From a virus, in IMG/VR virus record IMGVR_UViG_3300044624_001533, positions 1 through 21,204 of that record: a DNA stretch of 21,204 nucleotides; one strand, written 5' to 3'. Both the position numbers and the translations under genes were made by a program. This document shows, piece after piece, positions 1,463 through 17,708 of this stretch (position 1 is the stretch's first letter; each line of letters starts with the position of its first letter). Below the pieces are notes generated by a model. The model did not search any database and was not told the DNA's origin. It was given only the letters and a program-made list of their open reading frames with translations.

Positions 1463-5566
<4,104 letters not shown>

Positions 5567-5586: not shown

Positions 5587-8097
5587 ATGCCTCTTAATAA
5601 ACCTTCCTCCTCAATGCTTAATGCGGGGTCTAGTACCGCTCCGCAAAACCTTGGAGCTACCGCCTCGGCTGGGACAGGTCCAGACCTGTCCTTTGCAGAT
5701 CACGTTCATGCTCGTCCTACCGCCTCAGAAGTCGGAGCTATCTCTTCTGGAGATAAAGGAGCCGCTAACGGCATTGCCTCTTTGGACGCAAATGCGCGTT
5801 TGAACGCCGTGCAAATGCCCGCTGTTTCTGGCGATGTCGTAATTGCGGCAGGGACAACTACCAGCACCGTAGAAAAGATCCGTAATATCACTGTCCCTGC
5901 CCCAACTGGAACTAATACGACTCTGCAATACACGGGAAGCCAGCTTTTGTGGGGAAGTGCTCCTGCGGGAGGAAGTGGCGGTGGAGGGATCGTAATGTTC
6001 TTCAATAATGGAACTAGCGGAGACGCCCCTCTTACAAACCTTCCAGCCCTTACTGGAGGTCAAACCTATAAAGAGTTTCGTAGGGTTGCTGATACAGTAC
6101 AGACCAGTGTCACCTCGCCAACGCTTACTAGCTCCTACACCAACATTGCTGGGTTCATTACAGACCTTAATGATCCAGAAACAGTCGAGCTTACGGCTGG
6201 GTTATGGGACTTTAATGTGTGGGCTGTAAGTAGTAATGGAGGAACCTTAATCAGGACTTCTCTATATAAGTACGATGGTGGCACTACCTCCTATTCACTA
6301 CTCACCACATCTGCGGCAGTGTCTGTCCCTACGATAGCTGGGCAGCTTGTGTTCTCCCTTACCATACCTCAGACCACAATTGCTATTACGGATCGTATTG
6401 TGATTGTTTTTGAGGCGCTGAACCCGAATAACAATCACACTGTAACTCTACAGTTTGGGGGGTCTACCCCTAGCCACGCACATACTACTCTGCCTTCGGT
6501 CGGAAAAACTGGTGTGGTGAAGGTAATCAATGGGGTGGTACAGGCAGACGCTTCTTCGATTACAGATTCGGATGTAGAGGATGGCGCTCTTTCCCAGAGT
6601 AAGATTAACGGACTGACAAATGCCTTATCCTCTAAAGTAGGTACTGGGGATACGATTGCGATAGCCAAGGGTGGGACTGGGGCAACAGAGAAGGCGGCTG
6701 CATTTAACGCCCTATCTCCGATCACAGCTACTGGGGATTTGATTATTGGAACAGGCCCTAACACTGCTGGCACGCTTCCAATCGGTACTAACGGAAAAGT
6801 ACTTACATCAAACGGCACTACAGCCACTTGGGAGACACCTGCTGCGGGAGGAGGGGTCACTGCGATAGCCGATGGAGGAACAGGTGTTACAACTCAAGAA
6901 GAGGCTAGAGAGGTAATGGGGGGCATACAGATAGCTACGGTTCGCTATGGCACAAATATAGTTGCAGCATCAGCGGGAACTGTAACAGGCGCTTCTTGGA
7001 CTACAGGCTCCGCTGTGTTGAATTATACAAGTTCGACTGTAACTTTAGTTCCAGGTATGTCTTTTAATGGAAGCGGTATATCCGCTTCTGTTATAAAAAC
7101 AGTAAACTCTCCGACCCAAGTAACTCTGAGTGCAAACGCTACCAATAGTAATACAGGAACGCTTACTGTTTACAATTCGACAGTAAATACACTGGTTACA
7201 TCTACTGCTCCGACAGTAGACGGTGTAACTCTTGAAGCTGGGCATATAGTCGTACTTGCAACGCAGAATACGAGTGCAACCGGAGGCCCTTGGCAGGTCG
7301 TTAGCAACTCAGGAAGTTCCTTATCGTTGGTTCGACCTTCTTGGTTCCAAGGAACTTTAAGCAATCCTGTACTTATAGGTATTCAAAGGGGAAGCGGTTC
7401 TGGAGGATTTATTGTAGCAGTAGGCCCGCTTGCAGGTGCTACTACTGCCACTACAACTATCGGAGTCGATTCGCTCGCAGTGGCGACATTGTATTCCAGA
7501 AGCACAAACGCCACCCTATCCGGTAACACCTTCGCTGGAGGTCAAACCTTTGCTGCTGGTACTGCTAGTGGGGTATACCCATTCGCATTTCAAAACGGGA
7601 TACTAAACACAACTCCAGTAGCACATCGTGCGGAGTGGGATGGTAGCAACTTCTACCTAACCAACAGTTCTGCGGTTAGGAGAAAGGTGTCTTACGTAGA
7701 AGACGGGGTTTCGGTTGTAGCAACTGCTTTTACGGCTCCGGTTTCCCCAGCCACGACAGTAGCCCTGAACTTCGATTCGGACACTAATGATGTGGTGTAC
7801 TACACCTCTAACACTATTGCAGACCTCACTCTTAATATAAGGGGTACGGCTACGGTTGCGCTGAACACTAGCCTCGGACTGAACCTGGCTCGTACAGTTG
7901 TCCTGATGGTTACTAATGGAACGACTGCGTATAAACTTACCACGGTAAGCGTAGACGGCACTAATCAGACTGTAAAGTGGCTTGGAGGGTCTGCACCGAC
8001 TGGCAACGCAAGCTCTATCGACTCCTACTCCCTCACAGTAATTAAGACAGCCGCAAATACATACACAGTACTTGGTAGTGTTGTGAAATTTGCTTAA
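5587..8097 (+). CDS. Phage tail fibre protein
   Basis: An 836-residue fibre starting 20 bases after the giant adhesin; AAGG lies only two bases before the ATG, a poor spacing. The N-terminal part (about 25-75) contains FADHVHARPTASEVGA and GIASLDANARL, both recurrent in long tail fibres. Residues about 155-300 look like a beta-sandwich domain (LTAGLWDFNVWAVSSNGGT). Two fibre signature segments follow, IAKGGTGATEKAAAFNALSP (about 358) and IADGGTGVTTQEEAREVMGG (about 426), and a tip or shaft region runs to the C-terminus. It would act outside the cell in host recognition. No chaperone or lyase domain is evident. The ligand cannot be inferred. Confidence 0.85.
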   Translation: MPLNKPSSSMLNAGSSTAPQNLGATASAGTGPDLSFADHVHARPTASEVGAISSGDKGAANGIASLDANARLNAVQMPAVSGDVVIAAGTTTSTVEKIRNITVPAPTGTNTTLQYTGSQLLWGSAPAGGSGGGGIVMFFNNGTSGDAPLTNLPALTGGQTYKEFRRVADTVQTSVTSPTLTSSYTNIAGFITDLNDPETVELTAGLWDFNVWAVSSNGGTLIRTSLYKYDGGTTSYSLLTTSAAVSVPTIAGQLVFSLTIPQTTIAITDRIVIVFEALNPNNNHTVTLQFGGSTPSHAHTTLPSVGKTGVVKVINGVVQADASSITDSDVEDGALSQSKINGLTNALSSKVGTGDTIAIAKGGTGATEKAAAFNALSPITATGDLIIGTGPNTAGTLPIGTNGKVLTSNGTTATWETPAAGGGVTAIADGGTGVTTQEEAREVMGGIQIATVRYGTNIVAASAGTVTGASWTTGSAVLNYTSSTVTLVPGMSFNGSGISASVIKTVNSPTQVTLSANATNSNTGTLTVYNSTVNTLVTSTAPTVDGVTLEAGHIVVLATQNTSATGGPWQVVSNSGSSLSLVRPSWFQGTLSNPVLIGIQRGSGSGGFIVAVGPLAGATTATTTIGVDSLAVATLYSRSTNATLSGNTFAGGQTFAAGTASGVYPFAFQNGILNTTPVAHRAEWDGSNFYLTNSSAVRRKVSYVEDGVSVVATAFTAPVSPATTVALNFDSDTNDVVYYTSNTIADLTLNIRGTATVALNTSLGLNLARTVVLMVTNGTTAYKLTTVSVDGTNQTVKWLGGSAPTGNASSIDSYSLTVIKTAANTYTVLGSVVKFA

Positions 8098-8098
8098 T

Positions 8099-9100
8099 AT
8101 GCCTAAGCTATCTTTATTATCGTCTATTTCTAGGGCTAACTTTGTTAGACGGATGGGCCCGTCGGACCCCTCTTATGGCTGGGCTTTAAGGTCTTCAGCC
8201 CCGACATCAAATAAATGGTTTTCTATTGCCATGTCTTCAAATGGCTTAGTACAAACCGCATTAGCGCACACTAGCAACATCTACACCTCTTCTGATGCAG
8301 GGGCTACTTGGACCGCTCGTACCTCTGCTCCTTCTACGGCTAACTATAATTGGAATTCTGTAGCAATGTCTGGAGATGGCTCTATACAGACTGCTGTAAT
8401 TTACAGTGCTTCTATAAATAATGTTTCGTATATTTATAGGTCAACAAACTCTGGAGCTACCTGGGCTGCTAATGCCTCTCCTCCTCCTGGTTATTGGAGT
8501 TCTGTAGCCATGTCTTCTAATGGAGTTATACAGACTGCTTCACTAAACGGTGATAGGATTTACACCTCATCAAATTCTGGAGTAAGTTGGACAGCTAATT
8601 TATCTGCGCCTAGTGGCCCTGCTTGGCAGCACGTAGCCATGTCCTCAGACGGCACACGGCAGACGTTTGTAACAACTGGTGTGTCTGGTAAACTGTACAC
8701 TTCTTCGGATTCTGGAGCAACTTGGTCCCTTAACGCATCCGCTCCCACTGGAGAATGGAGAGCAGTCGCAATGTCTTCAGACGGGACAAGACAAACTGCC
8801 GTAATCGGAGGCGCTGGTATATCAGGCGGTCCTATCTATGTCTCTTCTGACTCTGGAGTTAATTGGGTACAAAGCTCTGCTCCTTCTGGCAATTGGCAAT
8901 CAGTAGCTATGTCTTCTGATGGAAGAGTACAGTTAGCAGTAAGGTACGGTACGGGCATAATATACTCCTCATCTGACTATGGAGTAAACTGGTCGGAATC
9001 TTCTGATGTCGCTAATTGGTACAGGGTAGCCGTCTCAGCAGATGGAACAAAGCAAACGGCTTTAATTTATAATGGAGGTATATACACACGTACTGTGTAA
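8099..9100 (+). CDS. Asp-box (BNR-like) beta-propeller virion protein
   Basis: I place the start at the ATG at 8099, one base after the upstream stop, rather than at an in-frame TTG at 8090 that overlaps it; this gives 333 residues. After about 20 basic residues the protein consists of repeats of about 42 residues with the pattern W-x-S-V-A-M-S-S-D-G-x-x-Q-T-A ... I-Y-x-S-S-D-S-G-A-T-W ... A-P. Six Asp-box motifs are visible (SSDAGATW, STNSGATW, SSNSGVSW, SSDSGATW, SSDSGVNW, SSDYGVNW). The last repeat stops at IYTRTV and the missing strand is probably supplied by N-terminal WALRSSAPTS, closing a seven-bladed propeller. Such propellers bind or hydrolyse surface glycans; I see no sialidase arginine triad, so binding is the safer reading. 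Confidence 0.85.
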   Translation: MPKLSLLSSISRANFVRRMGPSDPSYGWALRSSAPTSNKWFSIAMSSNGLVQTALAHTSNIYTSSDAGATWTARTSAPSTANYNWNSVAMSGDGSIQTAVIYSASINNVSYIYRSTNSGATWAANASPPPGYWSSVAMSSNGVIQTASLNGDRIYTSSNSGVSWTANLSAPSGPAWQHVAMSSDGTRQTFVTTGVSGKLYTSSDSGATWSLNASAPTGEWRAVAMSSDGTRQTAVIGGAGISGGPIYVSSDSGVNWVQSSAPSGNWQSVAMSSDGRVQLAVRYGTGIIYSSSDYGVNWSESSDVANWYRVAVSADGTKQTALIYNGGIYTRTV

Positions 9101-9984: not shown

Positions 9985-10752
9985 ATGGCCAACATAGTAC
10001 ATAGGTGGAAGCGAGGCATGGCCTGGAGCTGCTCACACGCTAAGTACTGTGACAAAGAGGCTTTCGAGGCTATGCTGAAATTTAAGCAGCATTGGAAGCC
10101 TCAATACGTAGCATGTCTAGGGGACTTCACAGACATGACTGCGTTTATGTTATCGAGCAGGGGCGTGTCTGCTGAGCATGAGCCTGTAGAGCCAGACATA
10201 GACACGGGGTTAATGCATTTGGCCCAGATGCAGCCGACCGATGTTCTTCTTGGTAATCACGAAGACCGTATCTACAAGATAAGAAACGACCCTGGCTCAA
10301 ACGCTATCGTGGCTTATGCTGCGAATAAAGCGGTCGAGCATATAGAAGCGGCATGTAAAAAGATGAAGGCCAGAATACACCCCTACGATGGGGTGTTTCA
10401 GTTAGTAAAGGTCGAGCAGTCCGATATCGGTCTCTCTCACGGCACCATCTACAACGAAATGGCGGCTAGGGATATGGCCGAGATTTACTGCAACGGCTCT
10501 TCCGTCAGGAAGATCATATTCGGACATACGCACAAGGTTTCGATACAGTCCTCACGAACATTGGCTAGCTCAGTCGGATACAACATCGGCTGTATGACTA
10601 AGAGAAACGCTCTTGAATACGCAAAAACAAGGAGGTCAACGCTTGCGTGGACACAAGCGTTTTGCTGGTTCGAGTATTGCAATACTTTAGGTATCAGCTC
10701 TGTACATATAACGAGTAGATCTCCAGGAGAACAATGGAGGTTACCGATATGA
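9985..10752 (+). CDS. Calcineurin-like metallophosphoesterase with altered first motif
   Basis: A 255-residue soluble protein with the ordered metal-binding motifs of calcineurin-like phosphoesterases: G46-D47 (CLGDFTD), G90-N91-H92-E93 (LLGNHED), H152 (LSHGT) and G180-H181-T-H183 (FGHTHK). The first motif, normally D-x-H, reads C16-S17-H18 (WSCSHAKY), so one metal-coordinating aspartate is missing. The family hydrolyses phosphomonoesters or diesters with two metals; here a changed metal site or altered activity is possible. Phage genomes often carry such proteins without a known substrate. No Shine-Dalgarno sequence precedes the ATG, which lies three bases after the holin-like gene; the C-terminus overlaps the next gene by ATGA. 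Confidence 0.85.
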   Translation: MANIVHRWKRGMAWSCSHAKYCDKEAFEAMLKFKQHWKPQYVACLGDFTDMTAFMLSSRGVSAEHEPVEPDIDTGLMHLAQMQPTDVLLGNHEDRIYKIRNDPGSNAIVAYAANKAVEHIEAACKKMKARIHPYDGVFQLVKVEQSDIGLSHGTIYNEMAARDMAEIYCNGSSVRKIIFGHTHKVSIQSSRTLASSVGYNIGCMTKRNALEYAKTRRSTLAWTQAFCWFEYCNTLGISSVHITSRSPGEQWRLPI

Positions 10753-12667: not shown

Positions 12668-12704
12668 CTTGCCATGTTGTATAGGGTTAGTAGCCCTGTA
12701 AAAG

Positions 12705-12737
12705 ACGCCCATCCTTAACGGGATGGGCGTTTCTTTT
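12705..12737 (+). terminator. Rho-independent terminator after the lysis genes
   Basis: A perfect 10-bp stem, ACGCCCATCC (12705-12714) with GGATGGGCGT (12721-12730), closes a six-base loop and is followed by TTCTTTT. It lies 38 bases after the endolysin stop and would end the late transcript. Confidence 0.9.
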
Positions 12738-12790: not shown

Positions 12791-12817
12791 GGCTATGGGG
12801 TAGCCTGCAATCCCCAT
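12791..12817 (+). promoter_or_regulatory. Two mutually exclusive hairpins at the AAA+ start codon
   Basis: GGCTA (12791-12795) pairs with TAGCC (12801-12805). Alternatively ATGGGG (12795-12800) pairs with CCCCAT (12812-12817), which contains the first two bases of the start codon at 12816. Only one stem can form at a time. A translational switch is possible but inferred. Confidence 0.35.
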
Positions 12818-14441
12818 GAGGAACCACGACAAATACAAGCATGAGATCGCCATAAACTCCGCAGCCGGAGTAGGCGTACTGTTCACTAGGACGAGGGAGC
12901 CGTTCCGCTGCATCGAGGCTCTAAAAGAGGTGGCCCAGGCCGCAAAAATCCCATTCGGAATCTGGAATGTGCGAGACGGTTGGAAGAAGGCAGACACGGC
13001 AGACGCAGTGCCAAAGGCAGATGGGGTTACGGATGTTTACAAAGCCCTGAAGCGGATTAAGGACGTGGACGGTGATGGTTCCCAGAGTTGGGGCTCGGGA
13101 GTCTACGTGATGCACGCAGCCCACCACTGGCTCGCAAAGCACCCAGGTATGATTGAGTGCCTCAGGCATTACGTCAGAGAGTTCAGCGAGAATCGTTCTT
13201 TGCGGCTGGTGCTAGTATCTCCAGAAGGCGAGATGCTGCCTGAGGAACTCCAGCACGACATTCCTGTGGTCGATTACACTTTGCCGGACAAGGAAGAGAT
13301 CATCGATATCTATCGCTACGTAATGGACTCCTGTGCAGTGGACGGAGAAGAGCCTCCAAATGTCCACAGTCAAAAACAGGTTAACACCATTGTGTCTTCG
13401 GCATCTGGTATGACCCAGATGGAAGTCGAGGTCGCCTTATCGAAGGCCATTGTCGAGAACAAGACCCAGAAGGGGATAGACTGGGAAGACGTGGACTTTA
13501 ACTCATTCAACTCCACTATCCTCGAAGCAAAGACTGAGGTAGTTAAGCAATCGGAGGTGCTGGAGCTTATGTCGCCTGTTGCGATTAAAGAGGTTGGCGG
13601 CTTAGAGAATTATAAGGAGTGGATTCGTATGGTCGCTTCTTGCCTCACTCCAGAGGCAGAGCAGGCTGGAGTCGACAAGGCAAAAGGGGTTGTAGTCGTG
13701 GGCCCTCCTGGCACTGGCAAGACGCTTCTTGGAAAGACTACGGGCACAGTGCTCAACCGTCCTTTGGTTCGAGTCGACATCTCAAAGTGCTTTGCTGGTA
13801 TCGTCGGTCAGTCTGAAGGTAAAGCCCGCTCCGCAATTCGTCAGCTCGAAGCAATGTCCCCAGTGGTCGCACTTATCGATGAGGTCGATAAGGCATTGGG
13901 CGGTGCCCATAAAGGAGGCGGGGACTCTGGCGTATCTCAGCGAGTGCTCGGGATCTTCCTTACCGCAATGCAAGAATCGAAGGCCGACATCTTTTGGATT
14001 CTCACCGCAAATCGGGTAAACAATCTACCCTCCGAGATGTTGCGTAAAGGTCGTATGGATGAGGTGTTTGCAGTGCTTCCTCCAAACCGCACCGAGCGTG
14101 AGGCGGTATTCAAGATTCACCTTAAAAAGAGGCTTGTTGATCCAGAATCTGTAGAAGATCTTGACGACGCAATCGACGCTTCGAAAGGATATGTTTCGGC
14201 AGAGATTGAGGCGGCAGTGAAGGAAGCTAAGAAGTTCTCTTTCCAGAAAGATGAGCCGATCACTGGAGCCCTGCTCTGTCGCCAGCTTCGGATGATGAAA
14301 CCGATATCTGAAGCGTTTCCTGAAGATTTTGCGGAGATGGAACGATGGGCGAGTAACAACGCTCGGAATGCCTCTCTCGCAGATAACGAAAACCAACACA
14401 CGGTAACCGCAATTAAGGCTCGTAGGAGGGCCATCAACTAA
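12816..14441 (+). CDS. Ycf46-like AAA+ ATPase
   Basis: A 541-residue AAA+ ATPase, first gene of a five-gene cassette. The N-terminal half (about 1-255) contains TREPFRCIEALKEVAQAAK and IPFGIWNVRDGW, the pattern of the N-terminal domain of Ycf46-type proteins. The AAA+ core has Walker A GPPGTGKT (296-303), Walker B ALIDEVDK with D355 and E356, sensor-1 ILTANR (about 398) and an arginine-finger segment RKGRMDE (R410, R413), followed by a helical lid. All catalytic elements are intact, so it should hydrolyse ATP as an oligomeric ring. Ycf46 is conserved in cyanobacteria and plastids; its substrate is not firmly established. No Shine-Dalgarno sequence is seen; the start is at the end of the intergenic block. 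Confidence 0.88.
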   Translation: MRNHDKYKHEIAINSAAGVGVLFTRTREPFRCIEALKEVAQAAKIPFGIWNVRDGWKKADTADAVPKADGVTDVYKALKRIKDVDGDGSQSWGSGVYVMHAAHHWLAKHPGMIECLRHYVREFSENRSLRLVLVSPEGEMLPEELQHDIPVVDYTLPDKEEIIDIYRYVMDSCAVDGEEPPNVHSQKQVNTIVSSASGMTQMEVEVALSKAIVENKTQKGIDWEDVDFNSFNSTILEAKTEVVKQSEVLELMSPVAIKEVGGLENYKEWIRMVASCLTPEAEQAGVDKAKGVVVVGPPGTGKTLLGKTTGTVLNRPLVRVDISKCFAGIVGQSEGKARSAIRQLEAMSPVVALIDEVDKALGGAHKGGGDSGVSQRVLGIFLTAMQESKADIFWILTANRVNNLPSEMLRKGRMDEVFAVLPPNRTEREAVFKIHLKKRLVDPESVEDLDDAIDASKGYVSAEIEAAVKEAKKFSFQKDEPITGALLCRQLRMMKPISEAFPEDFAEMERWASNNARNASLADNENQHTVTAIKARRRAIN

Positions 14442-14442
14442 C

Positions 14443-15072
14443 ATGCCAATACTACAGACAACCATCGGAGACGTTAATCTCCGAAACTGCTCGGCAAAGA
14501 TCAGTATCTTCCACTGCGATAAAGCAGGTGGGCTTGAAAGGTACATCTCCCAGGCCGCAAAAGCCCAGACACAAGTCACGCAACGCGGGATGGCGATATT
14601 CAGCCCCTCTGTTCAGGGGATGCTTAAAGAAGTCGGCGGGCGCTGCATCAACGCTACCTTCTCAATTGCGGAGGGGGAGATCCTCAAGGTGTTTGTAAAG
14701 ATCAACCCAGGTTATGGGAGACTTGAGAAGAACGCTAACTTCTTCATTAAGGCCAGAGAGCACGCTGCCTATAGGGCGGTCAGCATTAACACCGTAGACG
14801 CGCCTAGCGTCATCTTCAGGACTGCTAGGCTGGAAGGATGCTTCGATATGCTTTCTCTTGAAGAGGCCCTTGCTGAGGGCATTCAAGTTAAGAGCGTGTT
14901 CAGAAGAGCCTACGATTCGAACCTTGTCGCCAGTGTTATCAGTAAGCACGAAGTTCTTCAGCCTGAACGGGCACCATCAATCAAGAAGCAAATCGTAGAG
15001 GTCGTAGATCCGATTTCTGGGGCTTCGACAAACGTAGTTAAAGTCAAACGTCGCAGAGCAATCTCCATCTAA
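14443..15072 (+). CDS. Unknown protein of the AAA+ cassette
   Basis: A 209-residue soluble protein starting one base after the AAA+ stop and ending one base before the DUF1257 gene. AGGAGG lies about 13 bases before the ATG, a long spacing. I recognise no domain. The middle (about 50-130) has alternating strands and a helical stretch (GYGRLEKNANFFIKAREHAAYRA), and the C-terminus is basic (KVKRRRAISI). Four cysteines are scattered without a metal-binding spacing. The position between the ATPase and DUF1257 genes implies that it works with them, perhaps as adaptor or substrate. Confidence 0.7.
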   Translation: MPILQTTIGDVNLRNCSAKISIFHCDKAGGLERYISQAAKAQTQVTQRGMAIFSPSVQGMLKEVGGRCINATFSIAEGEILKVFVKINPGYGRLEKNANFFIKAREHAAYRAVSINTVDAPSVIFRTARLEGCFDMLSLEEALAEGIQVKSVFRRAYDSNLVASVISKHEVLQPERAPSIKKQIVEVVDPISGASTNVVKVKRRRAISI

Positions 15073-15073
15073 T

Positions 15074-15610
15074 ATGTCACACACAACCTTAGTAAAAACT
15101 GTCCAGATCAAAAGCGAGTCGGCCTTGAAGGCTATGGCTACTGAATTGCGGAGGCTTGGCATCGATGTCGAACTCGTAGCCAACGCAGTTCCTCGCCTCT
15201 ACTACAAAGACCAGATCGCACGCACGTTGGTGAGAGATAAGAAGCCAATGCGCTTTCACCAGAACGTCGAGGAGTGCGACTATGTGTTGAAAGTTAAGGA
15301 CTCTTTTTACGACATCGGCTTCCTTAAAGACAATGAGGGCAACTACGTGCCACTGTTCGACGACTTCCCCTACGGGAGCCCGCACGACTCTCACCTTAAC
15401 GCTGGCAAGAAGCCACTTAAAGAGGTGCTCGGAACAAGACCTCCATCAGACTGTACTATGGAGGACCTGCACAGCTACTCCATCGGTAAGGCGATGCAGA
15501 TGTACTCTCTTGCGGCGGCTACAGAAGCCTGCACTGACTCTGGCTACTCCATTATCGGTAGTAGCTTCGACAACAACGGACAGATCGTACTTGAAGTAGA
15601 AATTCTATGA
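15074..15610 (+). CDS. DUF1257 (Ycf35-like) protein
   Basis: A 178-residue protein beginning MSHTTLVKTVQIKSESALKA, the typical opening of DUF1257, followed by a segment on the individual residue L-x-x-L-G-I-D pattern (about 26-32), the hydrophobic strand YDIGFLKDNEGNYVPLFD (about 79-96), and a C-terminal helical part with YSIGKAMQMYSLAAA and a final strand (SYSIIGSSFDNNGQIVLEVEI). DUF1257 proteins include the plastid/cyanobacterial Ycf35 and are of unknown biochemical function. In bacteria and phages they are found near AAA+ ATPases and DUF2997 proteins, as here. No Shine-Dalgarno sequence. The stop overlaps the next start (ATGA), implying coupled translation in fixed ratio. Confidence 0.85.
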   Translation: MSHTTLVKTVQIKSESALKAMATELRRLGIDVELVANAVPRLYYKDQIARTLVRDKKPMRFHQNVEECDYVLKVKDSFYDIGFLKDNEGNYVPLFDDFPYGSPHDSHLNAGKKPLKEVLGTRPPSDCTMEDLHSYSIGKAMQMYSLAAATEACTDSGYSIIGSSFDNNGQIVLEVEIL

Positions 15611-15807
15611 AAAAGCTGACCATCACAATCGACAAGTTGGGTAAGACAAAAGTAGAGGCCGACGGCTTTAACGGGCAAGGCTGCATGTCTGCCGCGAAGC
15701 CTATCCTCGATGCGCTAACCTCTTCGGACAGGAACCTGAGCGTCGAGGAGAAGCCAGAGATGCATGTGTGCCTGGACGAGTCTGAGTTTGAGAGCTTGGA
15801 TGTATGA
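15607..15807 (+). CDS. DUF2997 small protein
   Basis: A 66-residue protein whose first half (KLTITIDKLGKTKVEADGF, then GQGCMSAAKPILDAL) matches DUF2997: two strands with a 'dG-k-x-x-V-e-a-x-G-x-x-G-x-x-C' signature and one helix carrying the conserved cysteine C27. The family has no known function; the lone conserved Cys and small size suggest a ubiquitin-sized or carrier-like partner, which is inference. The second half is acidic. Both ends overlap neighbours as ATGA (15607-15610 and 15804-15807), the tightest coupling in the cassette. Confidence 0.8.
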   Translation: MKKLTITIDKLGKTKVEADGFNGQGCMSAAKPILDALTSSDRNLSVEEKPEMHVCLDESEFESLDV

Positions 15808-16142
15808 GACAGGTTATCGTTGTGACTCAGAACGGTGGATTGCACGGCCTAGAACACAAGGGCCGCTGTATTGACCTTAAGAAGTTTGGTAAGGCCCTTG
15901 TAGAGCGTATTACGCTTATAGAATGGGACTCTGACGTAGCCGGATGGTACATCAAATGGTGCAATCCTATGTTAGGCAGTCTCTGGAGCCTTAAAGAGCT
16001 TTCGGACGTTCAATCGCTACACACTGCAACACTTAAGATCCCAGTAGACAGAAGCGCACCCGTGTACTTTCACAGGTACGAGGATGCTGTGGATGCGGAA
16101 GTGGAAGTGATCCAACGACTCCAAAAAATAGGTGCCCTGTAA
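15804..16142 (+). CDS. Unknown protein, end of the AAA+ cassette
   Basis: A 112-residue protein starting at an ATGA overlap with the DUF2997 gene. It has an N-terminal strand-rich part (RQVIVVTQNGG, then LVERITLIEWDSD) with Trp-rich YIKWCNPMLGSLWSL (about 50-64) and an acidic C-terminal helix ending VIQRLQKIGAL. No family is recognised. Coupling to the DUF2997 gene and the hairpin just after its stop mark it as the last gene of the cassette. Confidence 0.65.
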   Translation: MRQVIVVTQNGGLHGLEHKGRCIDLKKFGKALVERITLIEWDSDVAGWYIKWCNPMLGSLWSLKELSDVQSLHTATLKIPVDRSAPVYFHRYEDAVDAEVEVIQRLQKIGAL

Positions 16143-16149
16143 AAAGAGA

Positions 16150-16188
16150 CCCTCGCCCCAAGGCTTACCAGCTCAATCGGGGCGAGGG
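16150..16188. other. GC-rich hairpin between cassette and replication genes
   Basis: CCCTCGCCCC (16150-16159) pairs perfectly with GGGGCGAGGG (16179-16188) around a 19-base loop. On the plus strand no T-tract follows; on the minus strand the stem is followed by TCTCTTTTT (complement of 16141-16149), so it reads better as a minus-strand terminator. On the plus strand it could be an RNA processing or 3'-end stabilising structure. Confidence 0.7.
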
Positions 16189-16246
16189 TGGATCGTTATG
16201 AACAAACTACGGAATCAGCACCCGCACTCTATACCACAAATATCAA

Positions 16247-16462
16247 ATGTCAACTAATAGCTACGATAGTCCAGGAAAGTCCGCGTATCCTTGTAATGGT
16301 GTTTACCTAACGCATAAATGGGATGGCCCTATAAACACTAAGGTCGATGAAGAGCTTTTAAGCCGTAAGTGTAAAAGATGCGGTCTTAAGTATGAGACGC
16401 TCTACACGTTCAGGAAGGAGCAGATTATAAAGAAGTATAGGGATGCCCAAACGAGCCAATAA
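16247..16462 (+). CDS. Small Cys-containing protein, possible zinc ribbon
   Basis: A 71-residue basic protein. It contains one C-x-x-C pair (CKRCGLKYETLY, about 42-45) and an upstream Cys/His pair (YPCNGVYLTHKW, C16 and H23), which could together hold one zinc ion as in small zinc ribbons, though the spacing is unusual. The C-terminus is Lys/Arg-rich (RKEQIIKKYRDA). It overlaps the replication initiator gene by 20 bases, so it is probably co-expressed with it. No Shine-Dalgarno sequence. The zinc site and any nucleic-acid binding are inferred. Confidence 0.6.
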   Translation: MSTNSYDSPGKSAYPCNGVYLTHKWDGPINTKVDEELLSRKCKRCGLKYETLYTFRKEQIIKKYRDAQTSQ

Positions 16463-17708
16463 GTACAGGGACTGGGAGTTCGCCAGGGCGGCACTAAGGC
16501 AGATACTCAGGGTCTGGGCGTTAGACTTTTCAGCACTTGAACTCCGAACCGCATTGTTTGTCTATGACAGGACCATCGGCTGGGGAAAGCAATGGGAGGT
16601 TATCACCTCGGAACAAGCATCGGTAGGCGTGTGGAACGACGAGGGGGAATGCTGGGCGGCTCCAATAACGAAAGACAAAGCCAGGGCAAGGGCTGCGTTG
16701 CAAGCCCTCGTAGATGGTGGATTTTTAACGAAAAGACAAAAAGGAAAGAGCTTCGAGTACGCTCTAAATCTTGAAATGAAAGTTCCAAAAAGGCTCAAAA
16801 CTGCTCAAAATAACGCACAAGAAGGGGTGCGAAATCGCATTTTTGAGGGGGGCGATTTCGCATCTAAAAGGGGGGCGATTTCGCACCCCAAAGAGTACTT
16901 CGTAGAAATAAGAGAAGCAAAAGATAATATCAGCGTCGTCGCTTCGCTTGACGCGGACATTCCGGTTGCGGAAAGCGTGGAGCAGATAAACGCGATAACC
17001 AGGTCCGTTGTCGTTAGGGCTAGGAAGCGTCAGGATCAGCGCAAGAAACAAGGAAAGTTTGAACGCCGTGCAAACGGTGGAGCTGAGTCAGGGTTCGTGC
17101 CTTTCAAGTCTTCGCTAGCGATTATATGGACTGACCTTTATCGAGGCGTCTATCCGCAAGAGGCGGTTGTGTCACTTCCTGCGATTACGCTACGGATACT
17201 TTATCTCTACGCAAAGAACTGGACGCTTTTGCGGCAGCAGGGAGAGTTCGTAGACTACCTAACATGGATCTTCGAAAACTGGTCTATGCTGAGGTCTGGG
17301 CCTTTCAAGTGGATGCAGGACTTCCCGATTACTCCCGCACCCAGAATCCTCGTTAGCACAAAGCTGCGCCCTCTTATCGAGGAGGCGTACCAGCAAAAGG
17401 ACTGGTGGTCCAGGTGGGCGAAAATGGACGAGTACGAGCGGAGAGTGCAGCACCTTACGGTAAATAAAGGACTGGATAGATCGAAGGCTGAAAGTATCGC
17501 GAAGCGGGAGACGGGATTTAGGGATGAGATTGAGGCGATCAAGCAGGAGCGCAGGAAACTCGAACTCGCCGCTTTGAGAGTGAAGCAGGCATACGAGCAA
17601 GAGAGGGCGGCACTCAGAAAACAGCAGCAGCGCAGCGGCGTTACCTCAGCGCCGAGTATACAGAACGTAGAAGGTGACTTTGGTAAATGGGACGAAAATG
17701 ATAACTGA
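16443..17708 (+). CDS. O-like replication initiator (winged helix)
   Basis: A 421-residue protein. Residues about 25-115 form a winged-helix domain as found at the N-terminus of phage replication protein O: ALELRTALFVYDRTIGWGKQ, then an ITKDKARARAALQALVDGGF segment (about 75-94) and a strand ending in KRQKGKSFEYAL. A polar linker (about 120-210) contains a stretch of G-rich DNA repeats. A helical domain (about 220-320) is followed by a long charged coiled coil (about 325-405). The family binds the origin and loads the replicative helicase, and a DnaB-type helicase gene lies 0.5 kb downstream, supporting this role. No helicase-loader ATPase is seen, so this protein may load DnaB itself. Confidence 0.75.
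   Translation: MPKRANKYRDWEFARAALRQILRVWALDFSALELRTALFVYDRTIGWGKQWEVITSEQASVGVWNDEGECWAAPITKDKARARAALQALVDGGFLTKRQKGKSFEYALNLEMKVPKRLKTAQNNAQEGVRNRIFEGGDFASKRGAISHPKEYFVEIREAKDNISVVASLDADIPVAESVEQINAITRSVVVRARKRQDQRKKQGKFERRANGGAESGFVPFKSSLAIIWTDLYRGVYPQEAVVSLPAITLRILYLYAKNWTLLRQQGEFVDYLTWIFENWSMLRSGPFKWMQDFPITPAPRILVSTKLRPLIEEAYQQKDWWSRWAKMDEYERRVQHLTVNKGLDRSKAESIAKRETGFRDEIEAIKQERRKLELAALRVKQAYEQERAALRKQQQRSGVTSAPSIQNVEGDFGKWDENDN
16824..16889. repeat. Iteron-like repeats inside the initiator gene, candidate replication origin
   Basis: Two direct copies of GGGGGGCGATTTCGCA (16847-16862 and 16870-16885), 23 bases apart, plus one inverted copy of the core (GGGGTGCGAAATCGC, 16824-16838; its complement equals 16875-16889). 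Because 23 is not a multiple of three, the two direct copies are read in different frames (GGDFA and RGAIS), so the DNA and not the protein is conserved. This parallels lambda, whose origin iterons lie inside gene O. Confidence 0.65.

Follow-up and report, generated by a model that had tools for sequence, protein, structure and literature searches.

The virus contig analysed here (IMG/VR record IMGVR_UViG_3300044624_001533, all 21,204 bases, hereafter the window) carries a cassette of five genes between its lysis and replication genes. The genes encode a Ycf46-like AAA+ ATPase (gene 1), a tail-bearing partner protein (gene 2), a divergent DUF1257 (Ycf35-like) protein (gene 3), a DUF2997 protein (gene 4) and a conserved small protein (gene 5) (Table 1). 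Genes 1, 2 and 3 are separated by single bases (14442 and 15073), and the last two junctions are ATGA overlaps (15607-15610 and 15804-15807). The original prediction for this DNA had described five such closely spaced open reading frames, and its coordinates, lengths, junctions and + strand were all recovered.

Table 1 Features of the cassette and its borders (positions in the window)
Feature	Position	Strand	Remarks
Intrinsic terminator 5' of the cassette, ends the endolysin unit	12703..12737	+	13-pair hairpin 12703-12732, then UUUCUUUU
Gene 1, Ycf46-like AAA+ ATPase	12816..14441	+	541 amino acids; N-terminal domain of ~240 amino acids, one AAA+ domain predicted to be active, linker
Walker A GPPGTGKT, residues 296-303	13701..13724	+	G296, G299, G301 and K302 invariant
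Walker B acidic pair D355 E356	13878..13883	+	invariant
Arginine-finger region R410-x-G-R413	14043..14054	+	R410 and R413 invariant
ATPase C-terminal tail KARRRAIN	14415..14438	+	resembles the gene 2 tail
Gene 2, tail-bearing partner	14443..15072	+	209 amino acids
Gene 2 C-terminal tail KVKRRRAISI	15040..15069	+	similar to the tail of the ATPase in this locus
Gene 3, divergent DUF1257 (Ycf35-like)	15074..15610	+	178 amino acids, alpha/beta fold
Gene 4, DUF2997 small protein	15607..15807	+	66 amino acids
Gene 5, conserved small protein	15804..16142	+	112 amino acids
GC-rich hairpin at the cassette 3' end	16149..16189	+	-27.2 kcal/mol, z -4.0 (versus shuffled sequence)

The five proteins

Gene 1 matches the AAA family in the Pfam profile search (PF00004, E 1.6e-25) and phrog_8638 over residues 3-529 (1.8e-134). 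Motif invariance was judged in one 9-sequence alignment, in which the Walker A, Walker B and arginine-finger residues, earlier described as intact, are invariant, as is the sensor-1 residue N399. The complete set of motifs (Walker A, Walker B, sensor 1 and arginine fingers) makes gene 1 a full AAA+ ATPase. No Ycf46 model was among the Pfam and NCBIfam scan matches of gene 1. The linkage to Ycf35/DUF1257 and DUF2997 that marks Ycf46 was found in both phage and cellular loci, and gene 1 is 32% identical to a chromosomal homologue that adjoins DUF1257 and DUF2997, over a stretch of 435 residues that takes in some of the N-terminal domain. Like the phage motor, Ycf46 (Slr0374) of cyanobacteria and plastids has an N-terminal domain and one active AAA+ domain, and it stays near, or is lost together with, DUF1257/Ycf35. 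A Synechocystis ycf46 mutant reportedly has lowered carbonic anhydrase activity (work cited in PMC7496141). The phage motor differs from chromosomal homologues without a partner in having a linker and a C-terminal tail.

Taken alone, gene 3 scores 14.0 bits against DUF1257 (PF06868), under the gathering cut-off of 22.2. The proteins that occupy its place in phages of Rhizobium, Aeromonas and Pseudomonas reach 37.1, 34.6 and 24.0 bits, and the cut-off is passed in 19 of 30 related virus records; gene 3 is therefore a divergent relative of DUF1257/Ycf35 and not a scored member. Gene 4 lies just above the DUF2997 cut-off (PF11211, 24.8 bits versus 24.1), and its Cys26, within a G-x2-C motif, is invariant in the gene 4 alignment. 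The family assignments of the original prediction thus stand for the AAA+ ATPase and DUF2997, and for DUF1257 they hold above threshold in the relatives and below it in the window. A scan of viral contigs for close relatives of gene 3 gave no match, and no cellular relative emerged when genomes were scanned with the phage-type gene 3. In Pseudomonas phage PA_L9, the annotated start of the DUF1257 gene PAL9_74 (10184, locus 10121-10564) is probably too late, and an ATG at 10121 restores the conserved MSHTS start of the protein.

Gene 2 has no family match in the libraries searched, Pfam included, and in the Pfam search it did not match the DUF3150 profile. Its model combines a beta-sandwich and a helical part with a hairpin and a tail that is disordered (predicted local distance difference test (pLDDT) 89.3, predicted template-modelling score 0.80); the gene 3 model has a pLDDT of 93.1. 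In the fold search neither model matched a PDB entry at E 0.001, and the best VIA Z values were 4.0 (gene 2) and 4.8 (gene 3); such weak matches of predicted models are no evidence for a new fold. In BFVD, gene 2 finds its own family (SM1, 3.5e-12) and one further phage protein (1.6e-18). Gene 5 belongs to no Pfam family and matches phrog_38408 (2.1e-8). By PDB sequence search, genes 2-4 had no match and gene 5 had two at chance level. Genes 2 and 5, the two unrecognised proteins put forward at the outset as possible components, are both found in all five-gene loci, gene 5 always at the same position and gene 2 as the tail-bearing partner.

Conservation in phages, plasmids and chromosomes

The same gene order is present in annotated phages of Rhizobium, Aeromonas, Pseudomonas, Rhodobacter and Agrobacterium, at times with one extra gene inserted, such as an HNH endonuclease. 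Gene 3 and the ATPase each seeded a scan of virus contigs; the two scans together gave 96 loci, and profile searches recovered the order 1-2-3-4-5 in 28 of them. With near-identical records removed and one Rhizobium plasmid added, this left 24 non-redundant phage or phage-plasmid loci, all of which have the five genes in the same order and on the same strand. Where a locus was found through gene 3 alone, the other four genes were also present (16/16). By this conservation of gene content and order, the cassette behaves as a unit. The original prediction had proposed such a unit, to be given up if the homologues proved scattered or if DUF1257 and DUF2997 found no match; the genes lie together in the 24 loci, DUF2997 scores above its cut-off and DUF1257 does so in the relatives.

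The ATPase, DUF1257 and DUF2997 form a core trio that is common to phages and cells. When bacterial genomes were scanned with a variant of gene 3, nine loci were recovered in deltaproteobacterial metagenome-assembled genomes, with ATPase, DUF1257 and DUF2997 in that order in 9/9. DUF1257 is present in 15 of 198 Desulfobacterota genomes; of the ten strong chromosomal loci of this group, nine have both the ATPase and DUF2997 adjacent, and the tenth, which stops at a contig edge, has the ATPase adjacent. The trio also occurs on plasmids of Pseudanabaena, Nostoc, Geminocystis, Planktothrix, Bacillus and Rhodococcus. On the Pseudanabaena galeata plasmid pPg_01 (L152 1-5527) it stands in a row of grpE, Hsp70 (profile match 1.1e-38), DUF1257, an AAA_21 ATP-binding protein, DUF2997 and the AAA+ ATPase, and in the chromosomal Desulfobacterota operons (L123-L131, L138-L142) it is accompanied by a diverged Hsp70/actin-like protein and a HEAT-like protein. 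Across 127 red-algal plastids, ycf35 and ycf46 both show habitat-linked loss (PMC5940233), an independent hint that the two belong together.

Partner exchange and matching C-terminal tails

Gene 2 was found only in the clade around the window. In its place, beside the same kind of ATPase, more distant viral loci carry DUF3150 (E 4e-19 and 3e-23 in two cases) or phrog_11021. One of these three partner families is present in 44 of the 56 full-length viral loci seeded with the ATPase, and a single locus of the 56 has neither a partner nor DUF1257/DUF2997. Partner type tracks the ATPase tree, with 13 changes versus 59 in shuffles. DUF3150 is helical, whereas gene 2 of the window is predicted to be a beta-sandwich; a literature search found no mention of DUF3150.

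In all three partner families, motor and partner both end in a short motif of basic and then alternating hydrophobic residues. Examples from other loci are VKRSLEV in the ATPase and PKRSLEF in the partner (L076), and VRALDL and ARALEL (L038). We compared the last 14 residues of the ATPase and the partner of one locus against permuted pairs, with the ATPases thinned to <60% identity. Tails of the same locus were closer than permuted pairs for gene 2 (p 0.004 to 0.005 across runs) and for DUF3150 (p 0.00015, and p < 0.0001 in repeat runs), and the tails of phrog_11021 gave p 0.009 from five loci only. The tails of genes 3 and 5 and the segments directly upstream showed no same-locus match to the ATPase tail. 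Among ten chromosomal ATPases without a partner no tail was seen, some of these loci ending at a contig or locus edge. In Corndog phages the partner and the tail are present and genes 2-5 were not recognisable in the 49.7 kb examined, so the tail seems tied to the motor-partner pair and not to DUF1257/DUF2997. What is new here is the replacement of the partner by DUF3150 or phrog_11021, with a tail match between ATPase and partner in all three cases.

The above analyses suggest, with what we judge to be about an even chance of being right, that the products of the cassette make up a single AAA+ protein-remodelling machine, with a partner that docks via a tail which the motor itself mimics. The motor would form a ring that pulls on proteins, with DUF1257 and DUF2997 as its fixed adaptors, and gene 2, as a swappable partner, would dock on the complex by its disordered basic-hydrophobic tail. 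The motor's own tail may fill the same site, and would then either keep the motor off until the partner comes or pass the partner on. SspB is tethered to ClpX by a C-terminal peptide, and the docking of gene 2 would resemble this in function, as a disordered C-terminal peptide of a partner would again dock on an AAA+ ring; the cassette has no ClpX, ClpP or SspB homology, however, and here the motor carries the same tail. Because chaperone genes adjoin the cellular copies, a protein is favoured over DNA as the substrate. The substrate could be either a host protein or a protein or complex of the phage that is produced around the block of lysis and replication genes. Given that phages carry the cassette next to replication genes, a replisome substrate is also conceivable. 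The proposal made at the outset, that the machine remodels a host target or shields the phage genome, gained no support; the cassette lies between lysis and replication genes, and the cellular versions adjoin chaperones or Fe-S proteins and not DNA-protection genes.

Several observations weigh against the remodelling machine with a mimicked tail. No Hsp70 was noticed in the phage loci, and phrog_11021 may be a distant DUF3150, in which case the partner families would perhaps be two and not three. The gene 4 tail matched the ATPase tail over all loci (p 0.004), yet not in the five-gene loci. The motif is loose and was spotted before testing, with strict matches in 28 of 92 ATPases, and shared descent can still raise tail similarity despite the thinning to <60% identity. 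Motif-bearing genes are not significantly enriched near the ATPase (16/487 versus 6/378, p 0.13), so that the tail claim draws on the matched-pair test.

The genes ycf46, ycf35 and DUF2997 have long been kept in cyanobacteria and plastids with their mechanism unexplained, and they are now linked into a single module found in phages, on plasmids and in chromosomes, for which phages offer small, genetically tractable models. With a short peptide named in motor and partner that can be removed to test control of the machine, an orphan gene group gains a concrete binding hypothesis.

Two Rhizobium phages have several tails of this kind, in 7 of 130 open reading frames of L338C (1.4 expected) and 4 of 56 of RHph_I4 (0.7 expected). 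The extra tails lie mostly between terminase and portal (L144 3996-12563 in L338C and L149 25911-34880 in RHph_I4; for example RRKINLD, RKVSLD, RRLIDLSD and RNVRI), and none were seen genome-wide in Aeromonas phage HJ05 or Pseudomonas phage PA_L9. It is conceivable, though doubtful, that the shared tail is a docking code across the whole phage proteome, borne by the motor, gene 2 and several more proteins, with the AAA+ machine as a hub for the assembly or remodelling of many proteins of the phage. As separate observations, two proteins inside the module (L031 7049-7603 and L072 6994-7782) have a SWIM-like zinc-finger motif, recognised by eye with no Pfam match, and the tail motif at their end, and in the Streptococcus satellite phage Javan368 (L007 9674-13627) a Ycf46-like ATPase stands beside a 573-residue protein that ends in the similar tail RKIKI.

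Alternative readings and genomic surroundings

The machine could instead remodel the phage replication complex or other DNA-bound proteins and, being made just before DnaB and the DNA polymerase, load, unload or recycle replication proteins. In the window, as in phages of Rhizobium, Aeromonas and Pseudomonas, the cassette stands directly upstream of the genes for DnaB and DNA polymerase, the trio adjoins dnaN and a WGR protein on a Nostoc plasmid, and the Corndog ATPase is near ParB, Ku and a sliding clamp. All of these points concern gene neighbourhood, however, and chromosomal copies have no replication genes alongside. DnaB is normally loaded by other, smaller AAA+ proteins, which also counts against this reading. 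We regard it as unlikely though with some claim to attention, and it would be compatible with the tail-docked remodelling machine if replication proteins were the substrate.

The matching tails, for their part, could be without function and reflect shared base composition, ancestry, or sequence copied within a genome from the end of one gene to that of the other. Arginine-rich tails are common in GC-rich phages, and copying could account for pairs such as KRSLEV/KRSLEF in L076. The tails of genes 3 and 5 and the directly upstream segments come from the same genomes and show no match, however, and the motif turns up in partner families that are unrelated and is missing where there is no partner, which makes this explanation improbable in our view.

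A different role for the core would be that of an iron-sulphur or metal-cofactor maturation device, in which the AAA+ ring would insert the cofactor into a client, with DUF2997 serving as a small carrier and DUF1257 binding that carrier. Radical-SAM 4Fe-4S proteins (Fer4_12) stand beside the ATPase or the trio on plasmids and one Desulfobacterota contig (L143 820-1518, L153 3339-3947, L154 272-1087 and L155 7112-7720), Cys26 of gene 4 is invariant, duf2997, ycf35 and the ferredoxin gene fed7 are grouped in cyanobacteria (PMC4284462), and the loss of ycf35/ycf46 in red algae goes with iron-related habitat (PMC5940233). The phage genes are of the same families as Ycf35/DUF1257 and DUF2997 and are adjacent as in the cyanobacterial cluster duf2997-ycf35-fed7, but the phage DUF1257 is longer and divergent, and no ferredoxin is alongside. 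A motif scan found no Fe-S protein beside the phage versions, DUF2997 has one invariant cysteine only, and DUF1257 has no conserved metal-ligand set in these alignments. Such a device therefore seems to us quite improbable for the cassette.

A defence or toxin-antitoxin cassette against competing phages, with the ATPase paired to a protease as its partner or antitoxin in the manner of IetAS or SgiAT, is very improbable: the AAA+ domain is of the SpoVK/Ycf46 type that SgiAT pairs with a subtilisin-like toxin (PMC10954446), but the cassette sits in the same place across many phages, unlike accessory islands, Pfam and PADLOC searches found in it no subtilisin-like or other protease and no other PADLOC protein, and the reading was rejected since the PADLOC IetA match (58 bits) is limited to the generic AAA+ domain. 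In the Pfam search none of the five proteins had a VWA domain, as found in MoxR-VWA systems.

Strong hairpins had also been predicted on both flanks, and both proved much more stable than shuffled sequence, the left one (12703-12732) having a folding energy of -22.2 kcal/mol and a z of -6.0. Unlike the left hairpin, the right one lacks a U-run on the + strand; it could be a terminator or, with equal likelihood, an element that serves processing or stability. Among the neighbouring genes, endolysin and DnaB helicase were identified by profile match, and the window also codes for tail-fibre and DNA polymerase genes, the polymerase being called from an open frame and its position in related phages. 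Before DnaB, a 421-residue protein (16443-17708) has a weak Phage_rep_O match, and related phages have a similar-sized unknown gene there. A BNR/Asp-box repeat protein (8090-9100) is likely a carbohydrate-binding or sialidase-like tail part, and a large tail-fibre-like protein (1463-5566) combines Mtd_N, collagen repeats and a CBM_5_12 carbohydrate-binding module.

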